Source: Gammaproteobacteria bacterium
GTDB lineage: Bacteria > Pseudomonadota > Gammaproteobacteria > Steroidobacterales > Woeseiaceae
Direction of reading: 5' to 3'
DNA: 64,000 nt
Assembly (NCBI GenBank): GCA_013151645.1
Contig: JAADHU010000015.1
Coordinates: 1 to 64,000, forward strand
Shown: one piece after another, positions 1,299-18,842 of the stretch
Layout of the letters: every line of letters starts with the position of its first letter
Numbering within the stretch: position 1 is the stretch's first letter
Program-made: the position numbers and the translations under genes
Notes under the pieces: generated by a model
What the model saw: only the letters and a program-made list of their open reading frames with translations
Told to the model about the DNA's origin: nothing
Database searches by the model: none

Positions 1299-2057
1299 AT
1301 GATTTCCGAGCCCCTGTTTTACGCGGCAACCGTGCCGGCGATACTGATTTTCGGTATCTCGAAAGGCGGCTTTGGCGGCGGCCTCGGAGTCCTGGCCATA
1401 CCGTTAATGGCGCTGGTGATGTCTCCCCTGCAGGCGGCCGCGATTCTCCTGCCGATACTGTGCCTGATGGATTTGTTCGGCCTGTGGGCCTACCGGGGAA
1501 AATGGATTGCGACTGAATTGCGTATTCTCGTGCCGGCCTCTTTGCTTGGTATTGGGGTGGGTACGCTGTTATTCGAGTACATGAGCCCGGCGGTTGTTCG
1601 TCTGCTGCTGGGGATTGTCGCGCTCAGCTTCACGCTACAATACTGGCTCGTACACAATTTTCGGAGGGAGACGAAACACTCCGTGTATCCCGCGTCCGTC
1701 GGCATTCTTGCCGCAGGCGCCGCTGGATTCACGAGCTTTATTGCACATGCCGGCGCGCCACCGCTCAATATGTATCTACTGCGACGTGGCATGGATCGAA
1801 GCCGGTTTGTGGGCACCTCCGTCGTATTTTTTGCCGTCGTAAACTACGTAAAGCTCGTCCCGTACGCCTGGCTGGGGCAGTTCGACCGCAGCAACCTGTA
1901 CACGGCACTCGTGCTCTCGCCGCTGGCACCAATCGGCATCGGCGCCGGTGTCTGGCTGCACAACCGGGTGAGTGACCGGTTTTTCTTTCGCTTCGTCTAT
2001 GTCCTGCTATTTGTGGTTGGCATCAAACTCATCTACGACGGCATCAGCGGGCTTTGA
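1299..2057 (+). CDS. TauE/SafE family sulfite/anion exporter
   Basis: A 252-residue inner-membrane protein of the TauE/SafE family, which exports sulfite, sulfoacetate and related sulfur anions or organic acids. The start is typical: a hydrophobic helix, then the glycine-rich FGISKGGFGGGLGVLAIPL repeat motif, and a second related half after residue 130 with GFTSFIAHAGAPPLNMYLL. About eight membrane helices can be drawn. It converges on the octaheme gene and overlaps its 3' end by 14 bases. A second, distinct TauE/SafE protein lies in the sulfur module at 39.3 kb. The substrate cannot be read from the sequence. Confidence 0.88.
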   Translation: MISEPLFYAATVPAILIFGISKGGFGGGLGVLAIPLMALVMSPLQAAAILLPILCLMDLFGLWAYRGKWIATELRILVPASLLGIGVGTLLFEYMSPAVVRLLLGIVALSFTLQYWLVHNFRRETKHSVYPASVGILAAGAAGFTSFIAHAGAPPLNMYLLRRGMDRSRFVGTSVVFFAVVNYVKLVPYAWLGQFDRSNLYTALVLSPLAPIGIGAGVWLHNRVSDRFFFRFVYVLLFVVGIKLIYDGISGL

Positions 2058-4401
2058 GTCGACCGAGAAGTGTGGCGATATCCGCATTTTCCGGATATTG
2101 GGCTTGCATGCGCAAGGCCTCACGACGTGCATCCTCGTTACGTCCTGTGGCATAAAACATCGTCGTTAAGCCCCAACCAATATCGAAATCGCCAGGGAAA
2201 GCCTGACTCGCATCCTGCATCGCGGCCATCGCCTCATCGGCGTGTCCCAATGAATTGAGCGCCACCGCATACACGTACGCGTAGCGCCGATTTCCGGGTT
2301 CGAGGACCGCTGCACGTCGCAGCTCTGGCAATGCAACCTCAGCCTGGCCACCGCGAACCAGTAGCAGTCCCAGCGAATGACGCAATGCCGCACTATCGGT
2401 GTCCAGCTCCAGACCCGCCTGCAACAACAACATGGCATCTTCGTCACGCGCCAATTGCCGATACAAATCGGCCAGATTCACTCGCGCGACGACGGCTCCC
2501 GGCTCCATCGCCAGCGCCCGTAATAACGAAGCCTCTGCCCGTTCCGTGTCACCCCGTGCAAGGTAAATGGACGCCAGGTTGCTGTGGGCTTCCGGCCGTT
2601 CCGCGGCCGCCAGCTGTGCGTCAATGTATTCTTTTTCGGCCGCCCTGAACGCTGCCTGTGCGCTCTGCGGGAGACCGCGCCTGGCGGGAGACAATATGCT
2701 CGCGGCTTCGATGCGCACCGCGCGCACCGGGTCGTCAAGGAGCGGCGTCCCGCCCGCCAAAGCGAGTTCACTCGCCGCGCCCCGTAGCGCCCGCAAAGCA
2801 CCCAGGCGAAGCAGCGGATCGGCGTTGTTCAGCCCGTCACGAATAGCACCGACCGAGTTCGAATCCAGCGGCGGGACAAGCAGGGAAAGAGCGGTCGCTC
2901 GTGCGATTCCGGGAAACGCCGAATTGCGCGTCGCGTCCGCCAGCGCTTTATTGGCCCCGGCAGCAACACCGCGACCTGCATGGATGGCACCCGCATAATG
3001 GCCCTGCCGGGTCTTGCCGTACCAGTCATCCACTGCCGCGGCGGCCCACTCCGGCCCTTGTTGTGCGTGACAATTATTGCAGGCATTCGGCGATCCTGTC
3101 GAAATCGTCAGATCAGGTCGCGGCACGCGAAAACTGTGATCGCGTCGACCATCAATCACCATGTAGTTGCGGGATGGCATATGGCAATCGACACAAACGA
3201 CCTGCTCCGGTGGATGCCGGTGATGATCGCTGCTCGCAAATCGGGACGGCAGGTGACAAGTGGCGCAAATGTCGCTCGGCTTACCTGACGTTCGTAGTGT
3301 TGCGGTATGCGGATCGTGGCAGTCTGTACAGCTCACACCAGCCTGATACATCTTGCTTTGAACGAATGATCCCCAGACATACGCCTCGCCATGAATCTGA
3401 CCATCGGCATAATAAAGCGGCTCGTCCAGCAATGCGGGCATGTGCGTGTCCAGCAACGACCGTCCGTATTGATATTCCCCCGTAATGGCGGCGCGCCTGG
3501 CATGACATCGGCCACAGGATTCGGGCTGCTGCGGGGGACGGACACGAAGTTCGCTACGCTGCGCAATACCGCTCTGAGAATTCATTTGCCATCGTGCCTG
3601 CTTCGTATCGTCAAGATCGACGAGCAGGCCAGTCGTGCGCTCAACAGTGCCGGCATTCGCCGCCGCCACATGCCGGGACCCCGGCCCGTGACAACCTTCG
3701 CAACCCACGTTGATTTCGGACCATGTCGTGTCGAACGACTGCGTCGCGCCGGCGAAGTTTTTTTGCAGGTTGGTGGAGTGACATTCGGCGCACATGTAGT
3801 TCCAGTTCTGCGCCCGGCCCGTCCAGTGCAGCGGGTCATCGGATGCTATGAATTCCTGCGCATAGATGTGGAACCAGCGCTGCCCACCCGCCGACTTTTT
3901 GCGACCGTCCCACGCCAGCGGTAACGCTTGCAATCGACCGCCGCTGAACTCGACCAGGTATTGCTGTAACGGCGCTACGCCGAACGTATAGCGAATTTCA
4001 AATTCCGCCAATTCGCCCGCTTCATTGTCCGTCCTGACCCAATAGCGTCCGTTGCGCGTAAAGAATGAACTAAGGACATCGCCAACCCTGATGCTGGCAT
4101 TGTCAAAATCGCCAAGCACCGTTTTCGCCGTCGCATGCTGCATCGCCAGATCGTGGTGCGAACCGGACCAGTCCTGGTACTGAGACGCATGGCAGACGGC
4201 GCATTGTGTCGAACCCAGGAATTCGACCGGGCTGTTCGTGAAAGCGGCGGACGCCGGCAGGGTCGCGTCGGGCGAGTGGCAGGCAGCCGCCAGGCCGACC
4301 AGCAGGATCATCAGCACCCCGCGGATACACGAAAGACGGCAGCCTGTGATTACCAAATGGACGTTCCCGCAAGCAGAAAAGGCGCGCGACCGGGCATGCA
4401 C
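2044..4401 (-). CDS. Octaheme cytochrome c / HEAT / TPR lipoprotein
   Basis: A large exported protein with eight CxxCH heme motifs in its first 440 residues (CAVCH, CAECH, CEGCH, CGRCH, CTDCH, CATCH, CVDCH, CNNCH). The layout is that of the cytochrome c554/octaheme family. A HEAT-like stretch follows (about 500-590), then four to five TPR repeats to the C-terminus. A lipobox-like LAAAC lies just after MILLVG, so the mature protein is probably a lipoprotein. The long 5' end is uncertain: ATG at 4311, with GGGGTG before it, or a start between the two, is as likely as 4401. Similar multiheme-TPR proteins are usually only named by domain. It may take part in periplasmic electron transfer or nitrogen/sulfur oxyanion chemistry; this is inference. 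Confidence 0.85.
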   Translation of the reverse strand: MHARSRAFSACGNVHLVITGCRLSCIRGVLMILLVGLAAACHSPDATLPASAAFTNSPVEFLGSTQCAVCHASQYQDWSGSHHDLAMQHATAKTVLGDFDNASIRVGDVLSSFFTRNGRYWVRTDNEAGELAEFEIRYTFGVAPLQQYLVEFSGGRLQALPLAWDGRKKSAGGQRWFHIYAQEFIASDDPLHWTGRAQNWNYMCAECHSTNLQKNFAGATQSFDTTWSEINVGCEGCHGPGSRHVAAANAGTVERTTGLLVDLDDTKQARWQMNSQSGIAQRSELRVRPPQQPESCGRCHARRAAITGEYQYGRSLLDTHMPALLDEPLYYADGQIHGEAYVWGSFVQSKMYQAGVSCTDCHDPHTATLRTSGKPSDICATCHLPSRFASSDHHRHPPEQVVCVDCHMPSRNYMVIDGRRDHSFRVPRPDLTISTGSPNACNNCHAQQGPEWAAAAVDDWYGKTRQGHYAGAIHAGRGVAAGANKALADATRNSAFPGIARATALSLLVPPLDSNSVGAIRDGLNNADPLLRLGALRALRGAASELALAGGTPLLDDPVRAVRIEAASILSPARRGLPQSAQAAFRAAEKEYIDAQLAAAERPEAHSNLASIYLARGDTERAEASLLRALAMEPGAVVARVNLADLYRQLARDEDAMLLLQAGLELDTDSAALRHSLGLLLVRGGQAEVALPELRRAAVLEPGNRRYAYVYAVALNSLGHADEAMAAMQDASQAFPGDFDIGWGLTTMFYATGRNEDARREALRMQAQYPENADIATLLGRLKAR

Positions 4402-7153: not shown

Positions 7154-8506
7154 GTGTCAGATAATTCCTACGATCTTCCCCTGGACAGGGATGACACCCG
7201 CTGGGCAACCTCGGCATGGCTGATCCTGGGCCTGGTATCACTAATAGCCGCTGGCATCTTTTCGCTATTGCTGGTGCTTGCCAGAACGCCCGTTGTCCAG
7301 AGCTTCATCCCGTTCCTCGATTTTTTTCGCGTCTCACTCGTTGTCCATGTCACGCTATCCGTATTGATCTGGCTGCTGTCGTTCTCGGCGGTTCTGTGGA
7401 GCGTGAGCAGCACGAAAAAACACCCTCTCTGGGACCGGATTTCCGTCGGGCTCGCGGTCAGCGGTACCGTGCTGATTATCATTGCGCCGTTCATCGGTGC
7501 CGGCAACCCGCAAATGAGCAACTACGTGCCGGTACTGGATCATCCGGTCTTTTTTGTCGGGCTCGAACTTTTTGCCGCAGGCATCCTCAGTCACCTGTTG
7601 CGATCTTTGCTGGCGTACCGGCGTATCGGTCCGACGCTGACTGGCTCAGATGCGCTGCAGGCCGGCATTACTGTCTCGGCGATTATTACGGGCGTCGCCA
7701 TCCTGGCCGTACTCGCGTCCATGCGCGGCCTGCCCGACACGATGACGGGTCAGGTCTACTTCGAGTTCCTCTTCTGGGGCGGCGGACATGTCATTCAATT
7801 CAGCTATACTCTGCTGATGATGGTTGCCTGGGTCGTGCTGGCCGACAAAAGTGGCTGCCGTATCGAACTGACGCCCCGTCTTACGCTCGTCTTCCTGATC
7901 TTTCTCGCCTTGCCGATCATCACGGTGCCATTCCTCTATGTAGCCCATGACGTCGCATCGCCCGGACATCGACTGGCTTTTACCGAGTTGATGAAATACG
8001 GCGGCCTCTCCTGCCTGCCGTTAGGATTGGCCGTATTTGCCAGCCTGTTCAATGCTGGCAAGGCCGACGGCGAACAGCGCTATTTGCGCTCCGCACTGAT
8101 CGCTTCTGTCGGCCTGTTTGCCGCTGGAGGCGTACTCGGGTTCATGATCGCCGGACTGGACATCGTAATACCGGCGCATTACCACGGCGCCACTGTCGGC
8201 GTAACGATCGCCTTCATGGGCCTCACTTTCTACCTGCTTCCGCGTCTCGGATTCGGCCCGCTGCCCCCACGCATGACGTTCTGGCAGCCGTATCTGTATG
8301 GCGGCGGCCAGCTACTGCACATCACCGGACTCGCATGGACGGGCGGCTACGGAGTACAACGCAAGACAGCAGGTGTCGCGCAAGGCCTGGACCGAATTGA
8401 AGAGATCGTGGGAATGGGCCTGATGGGTTTTGGTGGTTTGATTTCCGTCATCGGTGGACTCCTGTTTCTGATCGTCGCCTGGAAATCACTGCGGGGGAAA
8501 ACCTGA
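7154..8506 (+). CDS. Divergent heme-copper oxidase subunit I-like protein
   Basis: A 450-residue protein with about twelve membrane helices and the helix and histidine pattern of heme-copper oxidase subunit I. His65 in helix II and the His342-Tyr-His344 pair (IPAHYHGATVGV) fit the ligands of the low-spin and active-site hemes. Helix VI has FWGGGH (His212). The place of the usual His-His CuB pair reads His265-Asp266 (YVAHDVASPGH), so the metal site is altered. Such acid replacements are known in some nitric-oxide-reductase-like families. Start is GTG. The stop overlaps the start of a 60-residue membrane protein (TGATG). It may be a minor oxidase, a NO reductase or a non-catalytic relative. Confidence 0.75.
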   Translation: MSDNSYDLPLDRDDTRWATSAWLILGLVSLIAAGIFSLLLVLARTPVVQSFIPFLDFFRVSLVVHVTLSVLIWLLSFSAVLWSVSSTKKHPLWDRISVGLAVSGTVLIIIAPFIGAGNPQMSNYVPVLDHPVFFVGLELFAAGILSHLLRSLLAYRRIGPTLTGSDALQAGITVSAIITGVAILAVLASMRGLPDTMTGQVYFEFLFWGGGHVIQFSYTLLMMVAWVVLADKSGCRIELTPRLTLVFLIFLALPIITVPFLYVAHDVASPGHRLAFTELMKYGGLSCLPLGLAVFASLFNAGKADGEQRYLRSALIASVGLFAAGGVLGFMIAGLDIVIPAHYHGATVGVTIAFMGLTFYLLPRLGFGPLPPRMTFWQPYLYGGGQLLHITGLAWTGGYGVQRKTAGVAQGLDRIEEIVGMGLMGFGGLISVIGGLLFLIVAWKSLRGKT

Positions 8507-8688
8507 TGGAAATATTGCTCTTCACGGCCGTTGGCATTGCGATTTACGTTGCAGCGGACTGGCTATTGAAACGGATAGAATCGGCTCGTGAAGAACCACT
8601 GAAATACCGTCAGATCATTTTTTTCATCATTTTCCTGACGTTGGCGATGACATCGTTTCCGTTACTGCAGCGCTTTTTGTCATCCTGA
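8506..8688 (+). CDS. Small membrane protein coupled to the oxidase-like gene
   Basis: A 60-residue protein with two hydrophobic helices (LLFTAVGIAIYVAADWLL and IIFFIIFLTLAMTSFPLL) around a charged KRIESAREEPLKYRQ loop. Its ATG shares a base with the stop codon of the preceding gene (TGATG), so translation is probably coupled. The position fits a small accessory subunit of the subunit I-like protein. I do not recognise the family. The downstream neighbour is convergent. Confidence 0.7.
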   Translation: MEILLFTAVGIAIYVAADWLLKRIESAREEPLKYRQIIFFIIFLTLAMTSFPLLQRFLSS

Positions 8689-8696
8689 GCGGGAAC

Positions 8697-9098
8697 CTAA
8701 TGATGCACGCCCAGATTGCCGTGAAGCCGGGCATCAAAGCTTCCAAAATGCCCAAGAAACCAGTCTGACAAGCATTCGCTCAGGAGCTTGAAACCCGCTT
8801 CAGCATCCTGGTCAAAGATATCCATCATGTCCCGGATTTGATCGAGAAGATCCTCGTGATCATCTTTGTGCGCGTCGTATTCTTCGTAACCTGCTTCCCG
8901 CATCACGCGCTCTTCAAGCGCGAAATGCATCGCAATTGCCGTGTGCGTATCACCCAGGAACTGCTCAATGGATTTCGCATCGCACCGCGCCTGTAGTTCG
9001 GCATGAAGTTCGTTTATTAGCTGGATCATCTGGCGATGCTCGTCGTCCATTGCATCGATGCCGATGGAGTATTCAGGTTTCCAGGTGAGCAGTGGCAT
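8697..9098 (-). CDS. Bacteriohemerythrin
   Basis: A 133-residue single-domain hemerythrin that binds O2 (or NO) at a non-heme diiron centre. All ligand motifs are visible in order: DDEHRQM, the HTAIAMHFALEERVM helix with two histidines and the glutamate, HKDDHEDLL, and GHFGSFDARL with the last histidine and aspartate. There is no signal peptide, so it is cytoplasmic. ATG at 9098 is used, with AGGA six bases before; an in-frame TTG lies six bases further up. It is the last gene of a leftward run with SCO and the cytochrome b-ferredoxin fusion, suggesting oxygen supply or sensing for that respiratory module. Confidence 0.92.
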   Translation of the reverse strand: MPLLTWKPEYSIGIDAMDDEHRQMIQLINELHAELQARCDAKSIEQFLGDTHTAIAMHFALEERVMREAGYEEYDAHKDDHEDLLDQIRDMMDIFDQDAEAGFKLLSECLSDWFLGHFGSFDARLHGNLGVHH

Positions 9099-9106
9099 GA
9101 TCAATC

Positions 9107-9598
9107 CTATTCAAACACGAAACGCTTCGAGAGTTGATCGAAACGAATGACGAAATTTCTGCCCGGGGCGATAGTGACGTGCGCGGACTGCGAATAGCGA
9201 AAGGTGGAATCACTACCGGTATTGTCAAGATTCATGCTTAAGTCATATTCACCCGCGGCGATGACGATGCGCTGGTAAGCGATCGATTCACCATCAGACC
9301 ACAGGCCGCTTGGCGGCAAAGTAGCGCTATACAGAATTTTCTTGTTGGCCGATATTTCGACACGCACCGGGTGGCGTTCTCGCGGACAATCAGCCGGCCT
9401 GCGCATGTTGGGCGCCAACTCGTTAAGCTCTTCCTGAGTGAACTTGCGGCACGTTCCGATTCTTTCCCCGGCGAGCGAAAAAGATACCGAAACGATCGCT
9501 TCGTCGTTGCCGAGTACGCGCAGTACCGGCCAGGCCGAAAAAACCCCCACGACCACCACGAACAGCGCGTAAAAAACCATTTGCCCGAGAATTCTCAC
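9107..9598 (-). CDS. Membrane-anchored beta-rich protein of the oxidase cluster
   Basis: A 163-residue protein with one N-terminal helix (MVFYALFVVVVGVFSAWPVL) and a soluble, probably periplasmic, beta-rich domain. Two cysteines (GTCRKF and PADCPRE) could form a disulfide. Its ATG overlaps the stop of the cytochrome b fusion gene (ATGA), and hemerythrin follows nine bases later, so the three are one operon. I do not recognise a named family. The position suggests an accessory or assembly factor for the membrane electron-transfer complex. Confidence 0.7.
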   Translation of the reverse strand: MRILGQMVFYALFVVVVGVFSAWPVLRVLGNDEAIVSVSFSLAGERIGTCRKFTQEELNELAPNMRRPADCPRERHPVRVEISANKKILYSATLPPSGLWSDGESIAYQRIVIAAGEYDLSMNLDNTGSDSTFRYSQSAHVTIAPGRNFVIRFDQLSKRFVFE

Positions 9599-11139
9599 TC
9601 CGCATCCCCGTGGCGTACGACGCTATCCACGGATGCGCGCAGCTTCTGCAGATGCCTGGACATCTGCTGTGGCGCAATATTCTTGTCACGCCAGATCATC
9701 GCGATCTTGCGGTTGTCGATTCGTTTTCTGAGATGGGGGTCACGGGTGCGCATAACACGTTGCGCGGTCCAGTCCGCGCCGAATCGAAAACGACATCCGC
9801 CATCTGCACAGGCGGTCAGGACTATGCCATCGGCGTATCCACGAGACAATGCATAGTCCAGATACGACGGCGGAATCTGACCCATGCAGGCGACATAGAT
9901 TACTGCTTCCCCCGCTGATTGCAGTTGTTTTCCGACCCGGTTTCCTTCGCAACAAAAAGTCAGTATCCGGCTCGTGTGATCATCCTTGTAGCTGGCCGAT
10001 TTGATTTTTTCACGCAACGTGGCCGCTGACAACGCCGGCAAATCGATACCCGGAACGAGGTCGCTTCGTGTGCGAAACGGACTCGCCGTGGGACAAGCGC
10101 CGACACAGATACCACAGCTCACGCAAAGGTCCGCTACGACGACCGCTTCTTCCGTATAGCTCTTGCCGTCGCTGCGCGGTCGCATGTCGATCGCGCCATA
10201 CGGACAATCATCTGCGCAACGTCTGCAGCCGTTGCAATTTTCCAGATCCACTATGGCCGGTTCCTGCTTACGACCCGGTGGTAACCACGGTGCCATGACG
10301 ATCAGCCCGGTGATGCCGACGAGCATCGTCCATACCCAGCCTGGTGACCACGCCCGTACCAGTGGGTAGGTGTGCAGATAAAACCAGTCCAGGTTGATCG
10401 ACTGCGTCGCCTGCGACAGGTTCGCTTTGTCCTGACTTTCCGCGGGAAACACCAGCGCGAGTACCAGCATCGCCAGCAAGGTGCCACTCATCAGGGTCCG
10501 AGGTGGACTGATCACCGGCCGCGAAATGCGGAACAAGTGCAACCAGATGCCGAATACCAGGAAAATTGGCAGGCCTATCAGGTGCAGGAACGCCATGAGG
10601 GTAAAAAACCGGTCGCTTAAAACCGAGTCGCTGAGAAAGTTGGCGGCCATCGATCCGGTAAAGATTGGTATCGCATCCATCAACTCCGCGGACGTGATGG
10701 CTGTGTAGTGCGCCAGTTCATCCCAGACGAGCCAGTACCCCGTGATTCCCAGTGGGAATATCATCCATATGAGCGGCATGCCCGTGACCCAGCTAAACCA
10801 CCGACTCTGGCGATAGCGGTCAAACGAAAACTCCTTGGCGATGTGCAATAGCACCGTCACAATCAGGGCGTCCGATGCGTATCGATGCAGACTGCGCATG
10901 ATGCCGCCCAGGTACCATTGCTGATGCGTCAGGTATTCGAGGGACTCGAACGCCCCCGACACGCTTGTGTGAAAAAATATCAGCAACCAGATGCCGCTGA
11001 CCAGCACGATCCAGCAAAAAAAGATGCTCAGAGAACCGAGCTGATCGAGCGGACTGTGGCCCGGCGAAAATACCCGGGACATCGGTCGCTGCAGGATCTT
11101 AAAGCCGGCACGACCGGTTTTTTGCAACAGGGAGAGCAA
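9595..11139 (-). CDS. Cytochrome b6-like / 2[4Fe-4S] ferredoxin / MvhD-domain fusion
   Basis: A 514-residue three-part electron-transfer protein. Residues 30-220 form a cytochrome b N-terminal domain with His85/His99 and His186/His201; the 14 and 15 spacing is that of cytochrome b6. After another helix (about 265-285) comes a bacterial ferredoxin with Cys302/305/308/312 and Cys339/342/345/349. Residues 390-480 match the MvhD/heterodisulfide-reductase-associated domain (CCEGN, VACMG, TACADGGC). It could link quinone to a low-potential soluble donor or acceptor. No hydrogenase or Hdr gene is near. It overlaps the next gene (ATGA) and follows SCO by seven bases. Confidence 0.85.
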   Translation of the reverse strand: MLSLLQKTGRAGFKILQRPMSRVFSPGHSPLDQLGSLSIFFCWIVLVSGIWLLIFFHTSVSGAFESLEYLTHQQWYLGGIMRSLHRYASDALIVTVLLHIAKEFSFDRYRQSRWFSWVTGMPLIWMIFPLGITGYWLVWDELAHYTAITSAELMDAIPIFTGSMAANFLSDSVLSDRFFTLMAFLHLIGLPIFLVFGIWLHLFRISRPVISPPRTLMSGTLLAMLVLALVFPAESQDKANLSQATQSINLDWFYLHTYPLVRAWSPGWVWTMLVGITGLIVMAPWLPPGRKQEPAIVDLENCNGCRRCADDCPYGAIDMRPRSDGKSYTEEAVVVADLCVSCGICVGACPTASPFRTRSDLVPGIDLPALSAATLREKIKSASYKDDHTSRILTFCCEGNRVGKQLQSAGEAVIYVACMGQIPPSYLDYALSRGYADGIVLTACADGGCRFRFGADWTAQRVMRTRDPHLRKRIDNRKIAMIWRDKNIAPQQMSRHLQKLRASVDSVVRHGDAE

Positions 11140-11146
11140 CGCGGGC

Positions 11147-11944
11147 CTAGCGATTCCGAGGCCGCCGAAAGCCGCGCCAGAGATAGACGAAGCCGGACAA
11201 TACGACCAGAAAACCGATGGCTGTCTGAATGAACAACGAATTGTCTATCTCGTAGCGTCCGGTCGCCGGATTGTAGACGGTGCAAAACAGGCGCACCCTG
11301 TCGACGAGGCTCGCGATAACATGGCCCTGCGACTCCGGCCGATTCAGGACCAGTTCCTTGAGTGGTTCGACCAGCCACGGCAATTCGAAGTTGATGCCGT
11401 AAACCTGCCGGTAGACAGCGTTGTCCCGACCAATGATTGTCACCTGATTGATGTGATCGAATCCTCGTGGCGAAGGAAAATATTGAAAGCCAAGGTCAGC
11501 ACTCAATGCCTCGATGGTCTCTCTGGACCCACTCAGAAACTCCCAGCCGTCCGCATGGATATTCTGTTCTCTGGCGAAGGCTCGCATCGCATCCGGTGTG
11601 TCATGTGCTGAGTCGAAACCGATCGTTACAATTTTGAAACTCTCGTCACCGAGGATTTCGCGTGCCGCACGAGTCGCCCTGTCCAGGTTCTTCGTCGTCG
11701 TGGGGCAGACATGATGGCAGGAGGTAAAAATCATGCTGATCAGCAATGGTTGACCCGCGTAATCCCGCAGATTCACGCTTCGATTGAGTCGATCTGTCAG
11801 CTGATAGTCACCGAGTGGGTTACCGATCGCACTCTGCGAGATCTCAAGCGCTGTATCGCGGTCATACTCCGCCGGAAATACCGTCGTGGTGGCCAGCGCA
11901 AGCACCAGCATCAGTGATTTCCTGCCTACAGCCATGCCGTTCAT
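11147..11944 (-). CDS. SCO1/SenC family copper chaperone
   Basis: A 265-residue thioredoxin-fold protein that delivers copper to the CuA site of cytochrome oxidase. It has an N-terminal signal (LMLVLALATTTVFPA), the copper-binding CHHVCP motif (CxxxC) and the downstream histidine in FDHINQ. Unlike many SCO proteins it also has a C-terminal membrane helix (FIQTAIGFLVVLSGFVYLW), so it is anchored with the domain in the periplasm. The next gene is the cytochrome b fusion. The coxBA operon lies just upstream behind a terminator, which fits a role in CuA assembly of CoxB. ATG at 11935 is an alternative start. Confidence 0.9.
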   Translation of the reverse strand: MNGMAVGRKSLMLVLALATTTVFPAEYDRDTALEISQSAIGNPLGDYQLTDRLNRSVNLRDYAGQPLLISMIFTSCHHVCPTTTKNLDRATRAAREILGDESFKIVTIGFDSAHDTPDAMRAFAREQNIHADGWEFLSGSRETIEALSADLGFQYFPSPRGFDHINQVTIIGRDNAVYRQVYGINFELPWLVEPLKELVLNRPESQGHVIASLVDRVRLFCTVYNPATGRYEIDNSLFIQTAIGFLVVLSGFVYLWRGFRRPRNR

Positions 11945-11971
11945 TAAACCTCATTTGCACCTTGACGGCAC

Positions 11972-12002
11972 AAAAAATAAGGGGCGGGCAATGCCCGCCC
12001 CT
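11972..12002 (-). terminator. Intrinsic terminator of the coxBA operon
   Basis: On the leftward strand a GGGCGGG/CCCGCCC stem (11983-11989 with 11995-12001) is followed by TTATTTTTTG. It lies 30 bases after the coxA stop codon and before the SCO gene, so it separates the two transcription units. Confidence 0.8.
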
Positions 12003-12031
12003 AGGGGTCCCGGGGGGTTGGGACCTGTTTG

Positions 12032-13744
12032 CTAGGATATCGGCCAAACGGAAGCGAGATACTTCCAGTTGATGACATAGTAAATAACGAAAATAACCAG
12101 GAAGAAGATCGCCAGCAAGAACGTGCCCGGCGCAGCGAATCCCCACTTGCCTGCGGCCGCGTGACCGCCTTCCGGCACGACAATCGGTTCGGCGCGCAGT
12201 ACGCGGCTGGTGGTGAAGCCCCAGGCCGATTCAGAATCAACGGGTTTGCCAAAGAACACGGACAGGACCGTAACCAGCACGAAGATTGCTCCGCCGATGA
12301 CCGCGGCCGTACCTGATATACCCACAATACCCATGAACGTGTAGGCACTGGCTGGATAGTCGAAACCGAGCATCGAATCCGTGAAGGCCATGTCCCAATG
12401 CCGCCGCTCCACGCCCAATGTCCCGGCACCCATCATCGCCAGCGTAAACACCGCCATACCGAAACCGAACAGGTAGGGTTGCCACTTGACAAGTCCCGGG
12501 AACATCACCTGTTTGCGGAACAACGTGGGGATCAGGAAATACGTCAGTGACATGAAGGCCAATGTCGTACCGATTACCACAGTCGCGTGGAAATGGCCGG
12601 GAACGTAGATTGTATTGTGGATGATAATGTTGATTTGTTCAGTACCCATGATAACGCCGGAGATACCGCCGATGAATCCGAAGCCAACCAGCGAAATAAA
12701 CATCCCGGAGAATATCGGATTGCTCCACGGCGCTTTCCGCAACCATTCGAACAGCCCGTTGGTCAGTCCCTTGGCACGTTGGGCAACTTCGATAGAACCC
12801 GGTACCGTCAATCCGTGCACCATGCTGGCGAGCACGGCCAGGTACATCGCATAGCTTGTATTGAAGATCTTCCATTCCGAACTCAGGCCCGGATCGACCA
12901 GCAAGTGATGCGCGCTCGCCAGTTGCAAAAAGGCGATATACAGGAAGAAAGCGGTGCGACTGACTTTTTCCGACAAGGGTCGGGCGCCGAAGACGATAGC
13001 CGCAATGGCATACCAGACCGCGACATGAGCCGCGACGTTGATTTGCTGCGACGAATGTCCTAGCGCCCACCATATAAGCCGGTACATAGCAGGATCGATG
13101 TGATTGATGTATCCGATTGACCAGAGGTAGGTTGGTATCAGAATGATCGCACCAGAGGCGATCGTGAACACAGCGATGATGCAAGCAGTCAGCGCACCAA
13201 AAGTGACCAGAGGAATCGATCCCTCATAGGTTTTCTCCTCTTTGGCGATGACCAGCGTGCCTAAAAACACGAAACAACCGATCAGTGCGCCCACGGCGAA
13301 GAGAATAAGTCCGAGGTAAAAATTCGGGTTGGCCGGCATTGGCACATACGAAGTCATCATGACCGATGCATCGCCATTCATGACGGCCAGGTTGTTCACG
13401 ACCATGCCAATCATCATCAATGCGAAACCAAGCCAGGCGATTTTCGGGGTTGCAAGGCGGCATTTCAGCAATGTCGATGAGCAAAAATAGAGCACGGCAA
13501 TTTCGAAGGTGATGAGCCAGAAAATCAGCATATCGACACCGTGCATGGTCAATAGCTGGTAGAACCTGTCCGCTGGCAGCAGGTGAACCGCCGGCCAGCG
13601 CGTCAGCGTAACCAGCAATGCACCGACTCCGCCGATCAAGAGAAACACGATCGATGCGACCGCATGCGCCTTCATCAGGCGTTCCGCGGGTTTATGAAAC
13701 TGCAATCCGGATTCCGGGCACGTTCTAAAAAGTTCGGCGCTCAT
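12032..13744 (-). CDS. Cytochrome c oxidase subunit I (two-subunit, B-type-like)
   Basis: A 570-residue heme-copper oxidase catalytic subunit that reduces O2 to water and pumps protons. About twelve to fourteen helices are visible. The ligands are all there: MHGVDMLIF (helix II), WWALGHSSQQ (helix VI), LASAHHLLVD (the CuB His-His pair), and VPGHFHATVV (heme ligands). There is no subunit III gene, and the helix VI sequence lacks the HPEVY motif, pointing to a B-type (ba3-like) enzyme rather than an aa3 A-type enzyme. The ATG at 13744 overlaps the coxB stop (ATGA). It is followed by an intrinsic terminator. Confidence 0.92.
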   Translation of the reverse strand: MSAELFRTCPESGLQFHKPAERLMKAHAVASIVFLLIGGVGALLVTLTRWPAVHLLPADRFYQLLTMHGVDMLIFWLITFEIAVLYFCSSTLLKCRLATPKIAWLGFALMMIGMVVNNLAVMNGDASVMMTSYVPMPANPNFYLGLILFAVGALIGCFVFLGTLVIAKEEKTYEGSIPLVTFGALTACIIAVFTIASGAIILIPTYLWSIGYINHIDPAMYRLIWWALGHSSQQINVAAHVAVWYAIAAIVFGARPLSEKVSRTAFFLYIAFLQLASAHHLLVDPGLSSEWKIFNTSYAMYLAVLASMVHGLTVPGSIEVAQRAKGLTNGLFEWLRKAPWSNPIFSGMFISLVGFGFIGGISGVIMGTEQINIIIHNTIYVPGHFHATVVIGTTLAFMSLTYFLIPTLFRKQVMFPGLVKWQPYLFGFGMAVFTLAMMGAGTLGVERRHWDMAFTDSMLGFDYPASAYTFMGIVGISGTAAVIGGAIFVLVTVLSVFFGKPVDSESAWGFTTSRVLRAEPIVVPEGGHAAAGKWGFAAPGTFLLAIFFLVIFVIYYVINWKYLASVWPIS

Positions 13745-14292
13745 TGCCCCCCCTCCGTAACATAGATTTTGCCAAGCATCGTGTGATGTCCAATGCCGCA
13801 AAACTCGTTACAAATAATCGTCTGTTCGCCGCTGGTATCGGGTGTGACTGTCAGCACCATTTCGTAGCCCGGTAATATTTGCGTATTGATATTGACCGGC
13901 TGCAGGGAAAAACCATGCTGCCAGTCCATCGAGGAAATGTGCAATCGATAGGTCTGCCCCTTTTCGAACTCAAGTAGCGGCCACCATTGCCAGAGCCGCC
14001 CTACGAGGTACACATCGCTGCCCGGCGGCGGTCGCACAACCGGCAAATTCGCCGCTGTTTCCGTACGCACCGTATACTCGTCGACCATTGCCTGAGTCTT
14101 TGCAAGAAACGCCTGCGGCGTCGTTCTGTAGGCTTCGTTCGACAGGTTCTGTTTTCCGTAGATATGCCAAAATGGCATCATGAAAAACATGATCAATGAC
14201 CAGGTCAGCGCAATCGCTATCCAGGTCCCCTCTACTCTATCCAGAGGTTGCTTCCACCAGACGATTTCAGCAGGCGGTTGAATCGCACTCAC
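13741..14292 (-). CDS. Cytochrome c oxidase subunit II (CuA)
   Basis: A 183-residue subunit with one N-terminal membrane helix (IAIALTWSLIMFFMMPFW) and a periplasmic cupredoxin domain. The CuA ligands are complete: DWQHGFSL supplies the first histidine, and CNEFCGIGHHTM supplies two cysteines, histidine and methionine. The single anchor helix is typical of B-type oxidases. It accepts electrons from cytochrome c and hands them to CoxA, whose start codon it overlaps. A 53-residue membrane peptide gene lies 46 bases upstream in the same direction. Confidence 0.92.
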   Translation of the reverse strand: MSAIQPPAEIVWWKQPLDRVEGTWIAIALTWSLIMFFMMPFWHIYGKQNLSNEAYRTTPQAFLAKTQAMVDEYTVRTETAANLPVVRPPPGSDVYLVGRLWQWWPLLEFEKGQTYRLHISSMDWQHGFSLQPVNINTQILPGYEMVLTVTPDTSGEQTIICNEFCGIGHHTMLGKIYVTEGGQ

Positions 14293-15312: not shown

Positions 15313-16272
15313 ATGCGGAAACTGGCGATAGCATCACTGGCACTCGTCGTCCTGTTGGTGTCGCTCAGCGCTTACCTGCGTCTCGAACACTCCGGAATAG
15401 GCTGCGAACCCTGGCCCTCCTGTTATGGCAACATCGGTGTCGTCGCCAGCAAAGTCACCGTTGGCGATGCCTATGAACGCCTGCTGGAGGAAGCGCGCCA
15501 ACCGTTGTCCTGGGCCAGGCCACTACACCGCCTGGTTGCCAGTGTTCTCGGCATGATGATACTCGGCCTGGCGCTGCTGGCGGTCATTCGCAAGCGCGAC
15601 CGGGTGCTGGCATTGAGCTTGTTGTTGCTTACGGTGTTTCTGGCCGGGCTCGGAATTTATTCAGAAGGGATCAACAATCCGGCTATCGTGATGGGCAACC
15701 TCGCCGGTGGTTTTTCAATGCTTGGACTGCTTGGCTGGATGGTTTTCCGATCGCCACGGACAGCGGCGGCTTCGCGTCATTCCGTCCGCGTGCTGGCCAT
15801 CATCGCGTTGGCCGTTCTTGGTCTGCAAATTCTGTTCGGCGGATTGACCAGCGCTAATTTTGCCGCTTCCGCCTGCAGGACTGTGCCGGACTGTCACGGC
15901 AGCTGGCTGCCAGGCAAGAATCTCGCCGCCGCGTTTGACCTTACACAGGCACATCAAATTGGTGCATCCGGCAATGTGCTCGGCGGTGCTGAACGCGCCG
16001 ATATTCAAAAGCTGCATCGGCTCACCGCGATATTAACTGCTGTTCTGATCATTGCGGCAGGTATCGCCGCGATGAGAGCGGAATCCCGTTACCGGTCCAC
16101 CGCTACAGTGATGCTCATCATCGTACTGGCGGAATTTTCAGTCGGCGTCGCGGCTATTGTAACGGAGCTGCCGATTGGCCTGGCGGTCGCACACAACTGG
16201 CTGGCCGGCATATTGTTGCTGAGTCTGCTGAAGCTTGTCGTGGATTCTCGACCTCAACGCGGACGGCTGTAA
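15313..16272 (+). CDS. COX15/CtaA family heme A synthase, cysteine-pair type
   Basis: A 319-residue membrane protein with about eight helices that would oxidise the methyl group of heme O to give heme A. Histidines for heme b/o binding sit in RPLHRLVASVLGM and KLHRLTAILTAV, and in VAHNWLAGILLL. Two extracytoplasmic cysteine pairs (GCEPWPSCYG and ACRTVPDCHG) are the disulfide hallmark of one CtaA class. A second, cysteine-free paralogue follows 60 bases later. Having both next to an oxidase operon is unusual. One of them may have another hydroxylation or heme-handling role. Confidence 0.85.
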   Translation: MRKLAIASLALVVLLVSLSAYLRLEHSGIGCEPWPSCYGNIGVVASKVTVGDAYERLLEEARQPLSWARPLHRLVASVLGMMILGLALLAVIRKRDRVLALSLLLLTVFLAGLGIYSEGINNPAIVMGNLAGGFSMLGLLGWMVFRSPRTAAASRHSVRVLAIIALAVLGLQILFGGLTSANFAASACRTVPDCHGSWLPGKNLAAAFDLTQAHQIGASGNVLGGAERADIQKLHRLTAILTAVLIIAAGIAAMRAESRYRSTATVMLIIVLAEFSVGVAAIVTELPIGLAVAHNWLAGILLLSLLKLVVDSRPQRGRL

Positions 16273-16331
16273 GCGCCAGATCAAGCCTGCTAACATTGCC
16301 GACCGAGTTGCAATAACATCGAGCCCTGTCA

Positions 16332-17372
16332 ATGAGTGATTACACTTCCACGCAAGACCGTGCCGTAGCCAAGTGGCTGCTCATATGCTGCAGCCTCGTT
16401 TTCGTCATGGTTGTCCTCGGTGGCGTAACCCGCCTCACCGGCTCGGGGCTATCGATGGTCGACTGGCAGCCCGTCAGTCGTTTGCTACCGCCAATCGGCG
16501 ATCAGGAGTGGCAAAAGACCTTTGAAATGTATCAGCAGACGCCGGAATTCCAGAAAAAAAATGCCCACATGGATGTGCACGATTTCAAAGGTATTTTCTG
16601 GCTTGAATACGTGCACCGCCTGCTTGGCCGCATCATTGGCATGGTCTTCTTTTTTCCCTTCGTCTATTTCCTCTGGCGCGGCTTCATTGGCCGGGACGAA
16701 TGGATCAAGTACACATTGATGTTTTTTCTGGGCGGCATGCAGGGCGTACTCGGCTGGTATATGGTCAAGAGTGGGCTCGTCAATGTTCCCGCGGTCAGCC
16801 AGTATCGATTGACCGCCCATCTCATCGCCGCATTCGCCATCTTCGGGTATATGTTCTGGATTGCCTTGTCACGACTCTACCCGTCCCGAGACGGAGGCAC
16901 CGCACACCCGTGGTTCGGCAATACCATCGCGCTCACGATACTCATTACCGCAACGATCGTTGCAGGCGGTTTCGTCGCGGGCCTCAAAGCGGGCAAGATT
17001 TACAATACGTTTCCGATGATGGGCGATTACTGGCTACCGCCGGGGATGCTCGCGCTCGATCCCGTGTGGCGAAATTTTTTCGATAATATGGCGACCGTGC
17101 AGTTCGACCATCGAATCCTGGCCATTACGACCTTTGTGCTGGTCGTCGTTTATTGGACGAAGATTCGCAAGACGAAGTTGCCGGTCGGGGCAGGGAAAGC
17201 GGTCAACGCGCTTCTGCACACGGCGACTCTGCAGGTTATTCTGGGTATTTCCACATTGTTGCTGGTGGTCCCCGTTTTCCTTGCCGCCACCCACCAGGCG
17301 GTTGCGATGCTGCTATATGCTATTGCATTGTATCTTTGCCACCGTTTGTATTACGCCACTGACCGCGACTGA
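16332..17372 (+). CDS. ctaA: Heme A synthase, proteobacterial/mitochondrial COX15 type
   Basis: A 346-residue protein with eight helices of the COX15 class found in proteobacteria and mitochondria. It has the signature GGVTRLTGSGLSMVDWQP, the heme histidines in EYVHRLLGRIIG and QFDHRILAITTF, and AGLKAGKIYNTFPMMG. It converts heme O to heme A in the inner membrane. No heme O synthase gene (ctaB) is in the window. It stands between the cysteine-type paralogue and hemN, making a small heme-synthesis group that serves the oxidases encoded upstream. Confidence 0.93.
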   Translation: MSDYTSTQDRAVAKWLLICCSLVFVMVVLGGVTRLTGSGLSMVDWQPVSRLLPPIGDQEWQKTFEMYQQTPEFQKKNAHMDVHDFKGIFWLEYVHRLLGRIIGMVFFFPFVYFLWRGFIGRDEWIKYTLMFFLGGMQGVLGWYMVKSGLVNVPAVSQYRLTAHLIAAFAIFGYMFWIALSRLYPSRDGGTAHPWFGNTIALTILITATIVAGGFVAGLKAGKIYNTFPMMGDYWLPPGMLALDPVWRNFFDNMATVQFDHRILAITTFVLVVVYWTKIRKTKLPVGAGKAVNALLHTATLQVILGISTLLLVVPVFLAATHQAVAMLLYAIALYLCHRLYYATDRD

Positions 17373-17426: not shown

Positions 17427-18842
17427 ATGAACGAACACCGCACAACTTCCGACACCGAATTCCAATTGATCAGCTTCGATGCCGATCTGGTCAGCCGTTA
17501 CAGTGGACGAGGTCCGCGATATACGTCATACCCAACGGCCGTGCAATTCACCGATGCGTTCACCGAAGCGGAGTATCGCGAGGCGGCCCGCGCCAGCAAC
17601 GAGCGCGGGCGACCTTTGTCCCTCTATGTCCATATTCCTTTTTGCACCACGCTTTGCTACTACTGTGGCTGCAACAAGATTGTGACGCGCAACGCCGCCC
17701 GGGTACGAGATTATCTCGACTGCCTGTATACCGAGATCACGATGCAAGCGGAATTGTTCGACCAGGATCGCCGGGTCGAACAGCTGCATTTTGGCGGCGG
17801 TACGCCAACCTTTCTCGACGACAAACAGCTGTGTCAGTTGATGACCCACCTGAGCCAGGCCTTTTCGCTCGAGACCGGACCATCACGCGAGTTTTCGATT
17901 GAGGTCGACCCGCGCTCCGTTCACAGCGAATCCATTGAGTTGCTGGCGAACCTGGGATTCAATCGCCTGAGCCTGGGTATTCAGGATTTCGATCCCGAGG
18001 TGCAGCGCGCCGTGAACCGAATCCAGTCAACCGAAGACGTGCAAAATCTGGTCAATGATGCTCGCAAGTATGCATACCGGTCTGTGTCGTTCGACCTGAT
18101 CTACGGACTGCCCCGTCAGAGCGTCGCGAGTTTCGATGTGACTCTCGATCAGGCCATGGCGATGCGACCTGATCGGCTGGCGATTTATAACTACGCGCAT
18201 TTGCCAGAGCGTTTCAAGGGTCAGCGCATGATTCACGCCAAGGACCTGCCGACTCCGGAAACGAAACTCGACATCTTGCAACACACGATCGAAAAATTGA
18301 CCGATGCCGGCTATCTGTACATCGGCATGGATCATTTTGCACTGCCTGACGACGACCTCGTGCAAGCGAAACACGACGGCACGCTACAGCGCAATTTTCA
18401 AGGCTACTCAACCCACGGCGGCCTGGACCTGGTCGCTCTCGGCGTCAGTGCAATCGGTAACATCGGCGATACTTTCGCGCAGAACTCGGTGAGCACGATT
18501 GAGTATGAAACTCTGATATCGAAAAAGCAGCTACCGGTCAAGAAAGGCCTGATCGTCGATGAGGACGATCGGATACGGGCCGCCGCCATACAGGACATCA
18601 TGTGCCACGATGGAATTGACTATGCCGTTTTCGGGCAACAACACTCAGTCAATTTCAGCGAATATTTTGCCCCGGAACTGGAGCGACTCGCCGATCTTGC
18701 AGAGGACGATCTGATCGTCATCACAAACACGGCCATTGCCGTCACGGCGAAAGGTCGGCTCTTGTTGCGCAGCATTGCGATGGTATTCGACCGCTACCTG
18801 TCCACTGCCGATACGAACAAGCGCTTCTCTCAGGCCATCTGA
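17427..18842 (+). CDS. hemN: Oxygen-independent coproporphyrinogen III oxidase
   Basis: A 471-residue radical SAM enzyme that decarboxylates coproporphyrinogen III to protoporphyrinogen IX without oxygen. The start is typical (LVSRYSGRGPRYTSYPTA). The cluster motif is CTTLCYYCGCNK (CxxxCxxCxC), followed by HFGGGTPTFL. The C-terminal HemN domain holds YIGMDHFALPDDDL and FQGYSTHGGLDL. Length agrees with true HemN rather than the shorter HemW. Heme made here would serve the cytochromes of this region, and low-oxygen expression is expected, though no convincing FNR box was found upstream. Confidence 0.95.
   Translation: MNEHRTTSDTEFQLISFDADLVSRYSGRGPRYTSYPTAVQFTDAFTEAEYREAARASNERGRPLSLYVHIPFCTTLCYYCGCNKIVTRNAARVRDYLDCLYTEITMQAELFDQDRRVEQLHFGGGTPTFLDDKQLCQLMTHLSQAFSLETGPSREFSIEVDPRSVHSESIELLANLGFNRLSLGIQDFDPEVQRAVNRIQSTEDVQNLVNDARKYAYRSVSFDLIYGLPRQSVASFDVTLDQAMAMRPDRLAIYNYAHLPERFKGQRMIHAKDLPTPETKLDILQHTIEKLTDAGYLYIGMDHFALPDDDLVQAKHDGTLQRNFQGYSTHGGLDLVALGVSAIGNIGDTFAQNSVSTIEYETLISKKQLPVKKGLIVDEDDRIRAAAIQDIMCHDGIDYAVFGQQHSVNFSEYFAPELERLADLAEDDLIVITNTAIAVTAKGRLLLRSIAMVFDRYLSTADTNKRFSQAI

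Follow-up and report, generated by a model that had tools for sequence, protein, structure and literature searches.

A cytochrome b/[4Fe-4S]/MvhD fusion encoded with eNOR-type nitric-oxide reductase genes: a candidate dedicated transmembrane reductase

CcoG, also known as RdxA or FixG, is the cupric reductase of cbb3 oxidase assembly. A review describes it as a membrane protein that carries two tetranuclear Fe-S clusters, reduces Cu(II) and has an Ig-like periplasmic domain at its end (PMC7558416). NosR, which likewise sits in the membrane and has two [4Fe-4S] clusters, is dedicated to N2O reductase; it is reported not to act in Cu-centre assembly and perhaps to donate electrons to NosZ (PMC7660919). 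For eNOR, a nitric-oxide reductase believed to clear NO in many poorly studied denitrifiers, the literature we searched discusses only the two enzyme subunits. We analyzed a 64,000-nucleotide stretch of DNA from a gammaproteobacterium of the Woeseiaceae (the window; assembly GCA_013151645.1, contig JAADHU010000015.1), in which a minus-strand gene run at 8697-14292 encodes COX II- and COX I-like proteins, the copper chaperone SCO, a cytochrome b6/2x[4Fe-4S]/MvhD fusion (hereafter FUS), a one-helix protein and a hemerythrin. In our assessment, the chances are about even that FUS and its one-helix partner form a transmembrane reductase dedicated to eNOR. No description of FUS was found in the literature searched, which did not include Murali et al. 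2024, the principal paper on eNOR.

FUS (9595-11139, minus strand) holds Cytochrome_B, two stretches of Fer4 and FlpD/MvhD Pfam domains in a single 514-residue open frame. The cytochrome b part (residues 28-292; 10264-11058) contains the heme-b ligand histidines H85, H99, H186 and H201, the ferredoxin part (residues 295-353; 10081-10257) contains eight cysteines, and the MvhD/FlpD part (residues 388-500; 9640-9978; PF02662, 36.7 bits against a cut-off of 22.3) contains C397, C418, C444 and C449, all of them invariant among 31 aligned sequences. The three-part composition proposed from the letters alone, with b-type heme, two [4Fe-4S] clusters and MvhD, thus holds, and from the conserved ligands we infer b hemes and [4Fe-4S] clusters as the cofactors. 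Nor is the fusion a join of two genes by sequencing error: a single contig carries the fused frame in 22 of the 24 FUS genomes of our class-level survey, contig ends splitting it in the other two, and the frame recurs in the phylum-wide survey.

The membrane part of FUS resembles cytochrome b6 and cytochrome b (PF00033, whose profile runs to the PEWY region), sharing the four heme histidines, and it matches cytochrome b6 in the PDB with an E of 2e-26 by profile. The description as b6-type nevertheless falls short of the cytochrome part, in which we count six membrane segments. The motif DWFY, with D251-W252, aligns at the PEWY region of bacterial cytochrome b in a weak second stretch, where the PDB chain itself reads PVWY; the cytochrome part appears to be more than b6 and to extend to a PEWY-like region, as far as this weak alignment suggests. 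Cytochrome b6 has a heme c_n cysteine; the candidate in the window, C42, is not conserved in the 31-sequence alignment and was rejected. Unlike the cytochromes of bc and b6f complexes, FUS is fused to Fe-S and MvhD modules, and no Rieske match was found among 17 window proteins scanned with Pfam. FUS is also similar in its cytochrome part to ExtP and ExtQ of the selenite/tellurite operon (NCBIfam E of 4e-31 and 7e-7, respectively), although its 108 bits stay below the ExtP cut-off of 290.

We counted the six segments by mean hydropathy (37-55, 88-106, 120-138, 178-196, 216-234, and 268-286). Segment 88-106, at 1.18, falls under the 1.25 line but bears a heme histidine, and a weak maximum at 142-160 was excluded by analogy with cytochrome b. 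The loops 1-36, 107-119, 197-215 and 287-299 are net positive, whereas the D251-W252 loop is net negative, which places both ends of FUS inside and the DWFY loop outside.

The soluble tail matches the MvhD-type PDB chain 9sw2_D (E 1.7e-12, profile), and residues 295-508 match positions 572-772 of HdrA2 (E 1e-17). FUS hence shares PF02662 and its four invariant cysteines with MvhD/FlpD and with the Fer4-MvhD tail of HdrA2, a tail also present in QmoB, but it lacks the HdrA flavin part and is fused instead to a membrane cytochrome b. In contrast to the Mvh/Hdr complex, neither hydrogenase nor HdrA partners were found in the genome of the window at the thresholds used (NiFe-hydrogenase E<=0.001, HdrA2 model E<=1e-40), as had been supposed from the window itself, and the only MvhD match of that genome is FUS. 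NiFe-hydrogenase family members were matched at E<=0.001 in 37 of 57 FUS genomes, with 35 of these exceeding the cut-off; the remaining 20 have none, including 12 of the 36 good-quality genomes, so that a hydrogenase is not a constant companion. HdrA2 exceeds the family cut-off in none of the 57. Partial HdrA-like matches (E<=1e-40) occur in 31, the window's genome not among them; many of these we read as QmoA/QmoB pairs, judged by size.

The identity of the enzyme encoded upstream of SCO is central to the proposal. In the PDB, the COX I-like protein (12032-13744, minus strand) is closest to cytochrome c oxidases of the ba3 type (B-type). Where ba3 reads GHPIVY it has GHSSQQ, placing a glutamine at the position of the cross-linked tyrosine. 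Q233, Q234 and the heme and CuB ligand histidines (H68, H230, H279, H280, H384 and H386) are invariant in all 20 aligned rows. A glutamine at this position of the cross-linked tyrosine marks eNOR, whereas sNOR carries an asparagine (PMC8756737). We dropped sNOR, suggested by the gene order norSY-senC-orf1, as the partner enzyme on this ground. Relatives on Thermus and Thermomicrobium plasmids, at 45% identity, read GHGAQQ. The COX II-like protein (13741-14292, minus strand) matches TIGR02866 CoxB (E 2e-10) and PF00116 (E 0.0018), both under the cut-offs, but has a complete CuA motif: C161, E163, C165, H169, M172 and H126 are at least 93% conserved among 24 aligned sequences. With the active-site glutamine, a CuA subunit and B-type relatives all shared with eNOR, the gene upstream of SCO encodes, on its sequence, a putative eNOR-type nitric-oxide reductase (subunit I, eNOR-I) without the active site of an oxygen reductase.

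The linkage of FUS to eNOR is near-obligate. We surveyed 274 genomes of the class (FUS by profile A1, E<=1e-60; eNOR-I by profile A5, E<=1e-120; the heme-copper oxidase-like HCO2 by profile A2, E<=1e-50) and 398 genomes drawn across the phylum (FUS by profile A4; eNOR-I at E<=1e-80); most are incomplete assemblies, and distant variants are missed at such strict thresholds. In the class, FUS was found in 24 genomes and eNOR-I in 23, with 22 common to both. Contig ends accompany each of the three mismatches: for FUS without eNOR-I, the contig stops after SCO in G215 and holds a truncated eNOR-I at its end in G259, and for eNOR-I without FUS, the contig stops 24 bases past eNOR-I in G264. Of the phylum-wide genomes, 34 have FUS, including that of the window; leaving that one aside, eNOR-I accompanies it in 28 of 33, among them all 16 of good quality, the five lacking it (G382, G398, G406, G487, G538) being incomplete or contaminated. 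HCO2 occurs in 30 class genomes, 20 of them with FUS, leaving 10 with HCO2 alone and four with FUS alone. The suggested co-occurrence with the heme-copper oxidase-like gene is therefore real but looser than that with eNOR (20/24 against 22/24). The cd1 family PF02239, which takes in NirS together with its relatives NirN and NirF, is found in 54 of the 274 genomes: 21 of the 24 with FUS and 33 of the 250 others. Not all 21 are surely NirS, since the best PF02239 scores form two ranges. Fisher tests, which ignore relatedness, gave p values of 4e-29 for FUS with eNOR-I, 2e-19 with HCO2 and 5e-14 with the cd1 family. In the genome of the window, the cd1 match lies on contig C25, apart from the FUS contig. 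The FUS genomes without a cd1 match are G111, G120 and G228; NirK-model matches under the cut-off occur in G111 and G228, and no FUS genome of the 24 has NirK over the cut-off. With the eNOR glutamine in the partner enzyme and a cd1-family gene in 21 of 24 genomes, the original prediction of a link to oxygen supply for nearby oxidases is not supported. Distances between FUS sequences correlate with those between eNOR-I sequences (Mantel correlation 0.77, 19 loci), which may mirror species history only.

We gathered 55 loci by similarity to FUS, 50 of them with full-length FUS including the window and some of them perhaps near relatives. The one-helix partner adjoins FUS at all 49 loci with room for it (46 downstream and 3 upstream, the window included), a recurrence that excludes a chance arrangement. 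The same fusion thus recurs with conserved neighbors, the check proposed beforehand. SCO lies upstream of FUS at 38 of 46 loci, and at 34 of 38 the upstream 7 kb hold eNOR-I. Hemerythrin is found no more than 1.8 kb from FUS at 17 of 44, and HCO2 within 9 kb downstream on either strand at 23 of 41. A plasmid of the isolate Defluviimonas sp. SAOS-178_SWC carries the same run: COX II, COX I, heme o synthase, SCO, FUS, the partner and hemerythrin, with COX II and the partner annotated as hypothetical. Tandem FUS copies occur in four genomes of one family (f198; L178, L180, L181, L183), and the first and second copies fall in two groups of the tree.

The partner protein (9107-9598, minus strand) has no Pfam family at E<=0.01, and its residues C50, C71, R66, R73 and R75 are invariant among 30 sequences. 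Its structure model shows one helix and a beta domain (mean predicted local distance difference test score, pLDDT, 85.5). The fold has no Foldseek match at E<=0.001; the best VIA row (Z 9.7) is 8jkv, titled 'membrane proteins', followed by HGSNAT at Z 9.5 and below. The soluble domain is predicted to be a periplasmic beta-sandwich, the fold search supporting no closer assignment. Residue 42 is a leucine in the window (9473-9475, minus strand) and a histidine in 93% of the aligned partners. SCO (11147-11944, minus strand; PF02630 over the cut-off) retains C76, C80 and H164, at least 93% conserved among 27 aligned sequences.

Variant fusions bear on the direction of electron flow. L007 and L060 encode the same cytochrome b half with plant-type [2Fe-2S], FAD and NAD modules in place of the Fe-S/MvhD part, and L009 and L182 hold relatives of this FNR-type fusion by similarity; at L007, L009 and L182, it is placed between SCO and the partner. 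In L051 (6672-9224, minus strand), the cytochrome b half carries flavodoxin, FAD_binding_1 and NAD modules in a CysJ-like arrangement. This half is 97.6% identical in DNA to that of FUS on the same contig (954 aligned bases, 10 gap openings), reflecting either a recent copy or module swap or an assembly fault. A tree built from 41 cytochrome b halves gathers the four FNR-type rows in a single supported group and joins the CysJ-type row to its own FUS. Provided that the variants serve one function, electron entry is on the cytoplasmic side, as the NAD(P)H-type modules on the same cytochrome b half suggest. FUS and the partner themselves form one open frame in L004, L005 and L059. The FNR-type fusion of L060 (8083-10071, minus strand; genome G082) stands apart from the eNOR locus; some 8 kb from the fusion there is a two-piece match to a NiFe-hydrogenase family (E ~2e-10 and 5e-10).

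Domain anatomy, the trend in loop charges, the near-obligate co-occurrence with eNOR and the position of FUS next to the partner and, at most loci, next to SCO were computed directly; from them we infer the direction of electron flow, the target and the purpose of FUS. The MvhD/[4Fe-4S] end would take up electrons in the cytoplasm, and the two putative b hemes would pass them through the membrane to the periplasmic or quinone side, where they would serve eNOR. Most likely they would reduce or repair its copper sites, with SCO and the beta-sandwich protein also taking part. We favor such maturation or repair because FUS adjoins SCO and because the layout is CcoG-like: the order of the fused FUS-partner frames resembles that of CcoG, although FUS has a b-heme membrane part and an extra MvhD domain and is not matched by the CcoG model TIGR02745 at E<=1e-60. 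NosR is a further parallel, with two [4Fe-4S] clusters in a membrane protein tied to one denitrification reductase; unlike NosR, neither FUS nor the partner has a match to a periplasmic FMN domain, and FUS has a cytochrome b instead. A broader proposal, which we advance tentatively, is that proteobacterial eNOR needs a dedicated, cytoplasm-driven transmembrane reductase composed of one cytochrome b half with interchangeable inputs (Fe-S/MvhD, FNR-type or CysJ-type) and a two-cysteine beta-sandwich partner. Such a reductase would join CcoG and NosR as a third type of Fe-S electron conduit serving copper respiratory enzymes.

Several observations weigh against a reductase dedicated to eNOR or against its role in maturation. 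CcoG is found in 48 of the 57 FUS genomes, including that of the window (one TIGR02745 match on contig C82, FUS being on C31), so general cupric reduction does not call for FUS. For the same reason, we discarded FUS as a stand-in for a missing CcoG. At L059, L169, L174 and L184, over 7 kb separate FUS and the partner from eNOR-I; these genomes hold eNOR-I elsewhere (on the same contig in L059 and L174). Outside the phylum, eNOR genomes are represented by two plasmid loci only, one of Thermus and one of Thermomicrobium. Whereas proteobacterial loci mostly carry SCO, FUS and the partner, neither SCO nor FUS is annotated within 7 kb of eNOR on these plasmids, and a search of Thermus and Thermomicrobium plasmids, though not of their chromosomes, found no FUS; FUS is therefore not intrinsic to eNOR chemistry. 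The membrane half of FUS has no cysteine, methionine or non-heme histidine conserved at 90%. The structure model of the L004 FUS-partner fusion was poor (mean pLDDT 62.8, predicted template modelling score 0.34) and was not used.

Feeding electrons to eNOR in turnover would be a less likely use of FUS, and we regard it as the main rival. FUS would then be a direct path by which electrons from the cytoplasm reach the quinone pool or eNOR, bypassing the bc1/cytochrome c route. The near-obligate pairing with one reductase and not with a hydrogenase, the NAD(P)H modules of the variants, and the presence of CcoG for copper reduction in 48 of 57 genomes all speak for this path, as does the precedent of NosR, reported as perhaps a donor to NosZ and as not involved in Cu-centre assembly (PMC7660919). 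We nevertheless consider it rather doubtful: eNOR has a full CuA subunit, the usual entry of cytochrome c electrons, SCO as a maturation gene usually adjoins FUS (38/46), and the two plasmid eNOR loci lack FUS alongside.

The original prediction of a quinone:ferredoxin-type enzyme would have quinol oxidized at a periplasmic site and its electrons passed via MvhD to a low-potential cytoplasmic acceptor. The DWFY loop, which aligns weakly with the Qo region of bacterial cytochrome b, is consistent with it, and in Hdr complexes MvhD domains give electrons to, or take them from, partners of low potential. On general bioenergetic grounds, however, the reaction is uphill and draws nothing from the proton-motive force in this orientation. 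The NAD(P)H-type modules of the sister fusions and the lack of an HdrA partner in the window's genome make this reading less likely, and we find it improbable, with HdrA2 over the cut-off in none of the 57 FUS genomes (despite partial HdrA-like matches in 31) and no Rieske match among the scanned window proteins. Less probable still is a nitrosative-stress module, with FUS, the partner and hemerythrin as sensors or scavengers of NO or O2 that shield eNOR or the denitrification set. Fe-S clusters react with NO, cd1-family genes are enriched in FUS genomes and 17 of 44 loci have hemerythrin close to FUS, but the other 27 have none within 1.8 kb while the partner and eNOR-I are nearly constant.

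If the dedicated-reductase reading is true, a constant extra membrane reductase would show what eNOR needs for its assembly or lasting activity, and would reveal which cellular electrons control an N2O-producing step. The FUS linkage would then help to annotate eNORs, which are currently filed as cytochrome oxidases.

Returning to the locus, the set of SCO (11944-11147), FUS (11139-9595), the one-helix gene (9598-9107) and hemerythrin (9104-8697; NF033749 over the cut-off), recognized beforehand as an operon, proved real. As to its extent, the run from SCO to hemerythrin stands, but the gene set reaches further upstream to COX II and COX I, with a hairpin between. SCO and FUS are spaced by 7 bases. 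The overlap of FUS with the one-helix gene is GTGA rather than the ATGA first given, because the one-helix gene starts with GTG; from the coordinates, an ATGA overlap joins COX II and COX I, the latter starting with ATG at 13744. The true start of hemerythrin is probably ATG 9098. The strong, terminator-like hairpin parting COX I from SCO (12002-11980, minus strand) has a 10-pair stem with 9 G-C pairs and a T run. Because of its position, the genes from SCO through hemerythrin may form a separate unit or be attenuated. The count of terminator-like sites in the region is unremarkable at 11, against 7.4 (standard deviation 3.5) in shuffles.

On the plus strand of the same neighborhood lie HCO2 (7154-8506; PF00115 over the cut-off) and a gene for a 60-residue membrane protein (8506-8688), relatives of which occur near many FUS loci. 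HCO2 has H64, H211, H341 and H343 invariant among 16 aligned sequences and misses the helix-VII histidine pair, so that two of three CuB ligands seem lost. Against the PDB, it gave no match alone and one weak match with a profile (E 4e-4). It shares a contig with a cd1-family gene in several genomes (such as G205, G099, G227 and G014). Elsewhere in the window, 2044-4401 (minus strand) encodes a multiheme cytochrome c-like protein with tetratricopeptide repeats, and two COX15/CtaA genes stand in tandem at 15313-17372 (plus strand), followed by a HemN-like radical SAM gene at 17427-18842; relatives are present at several FUS loci.

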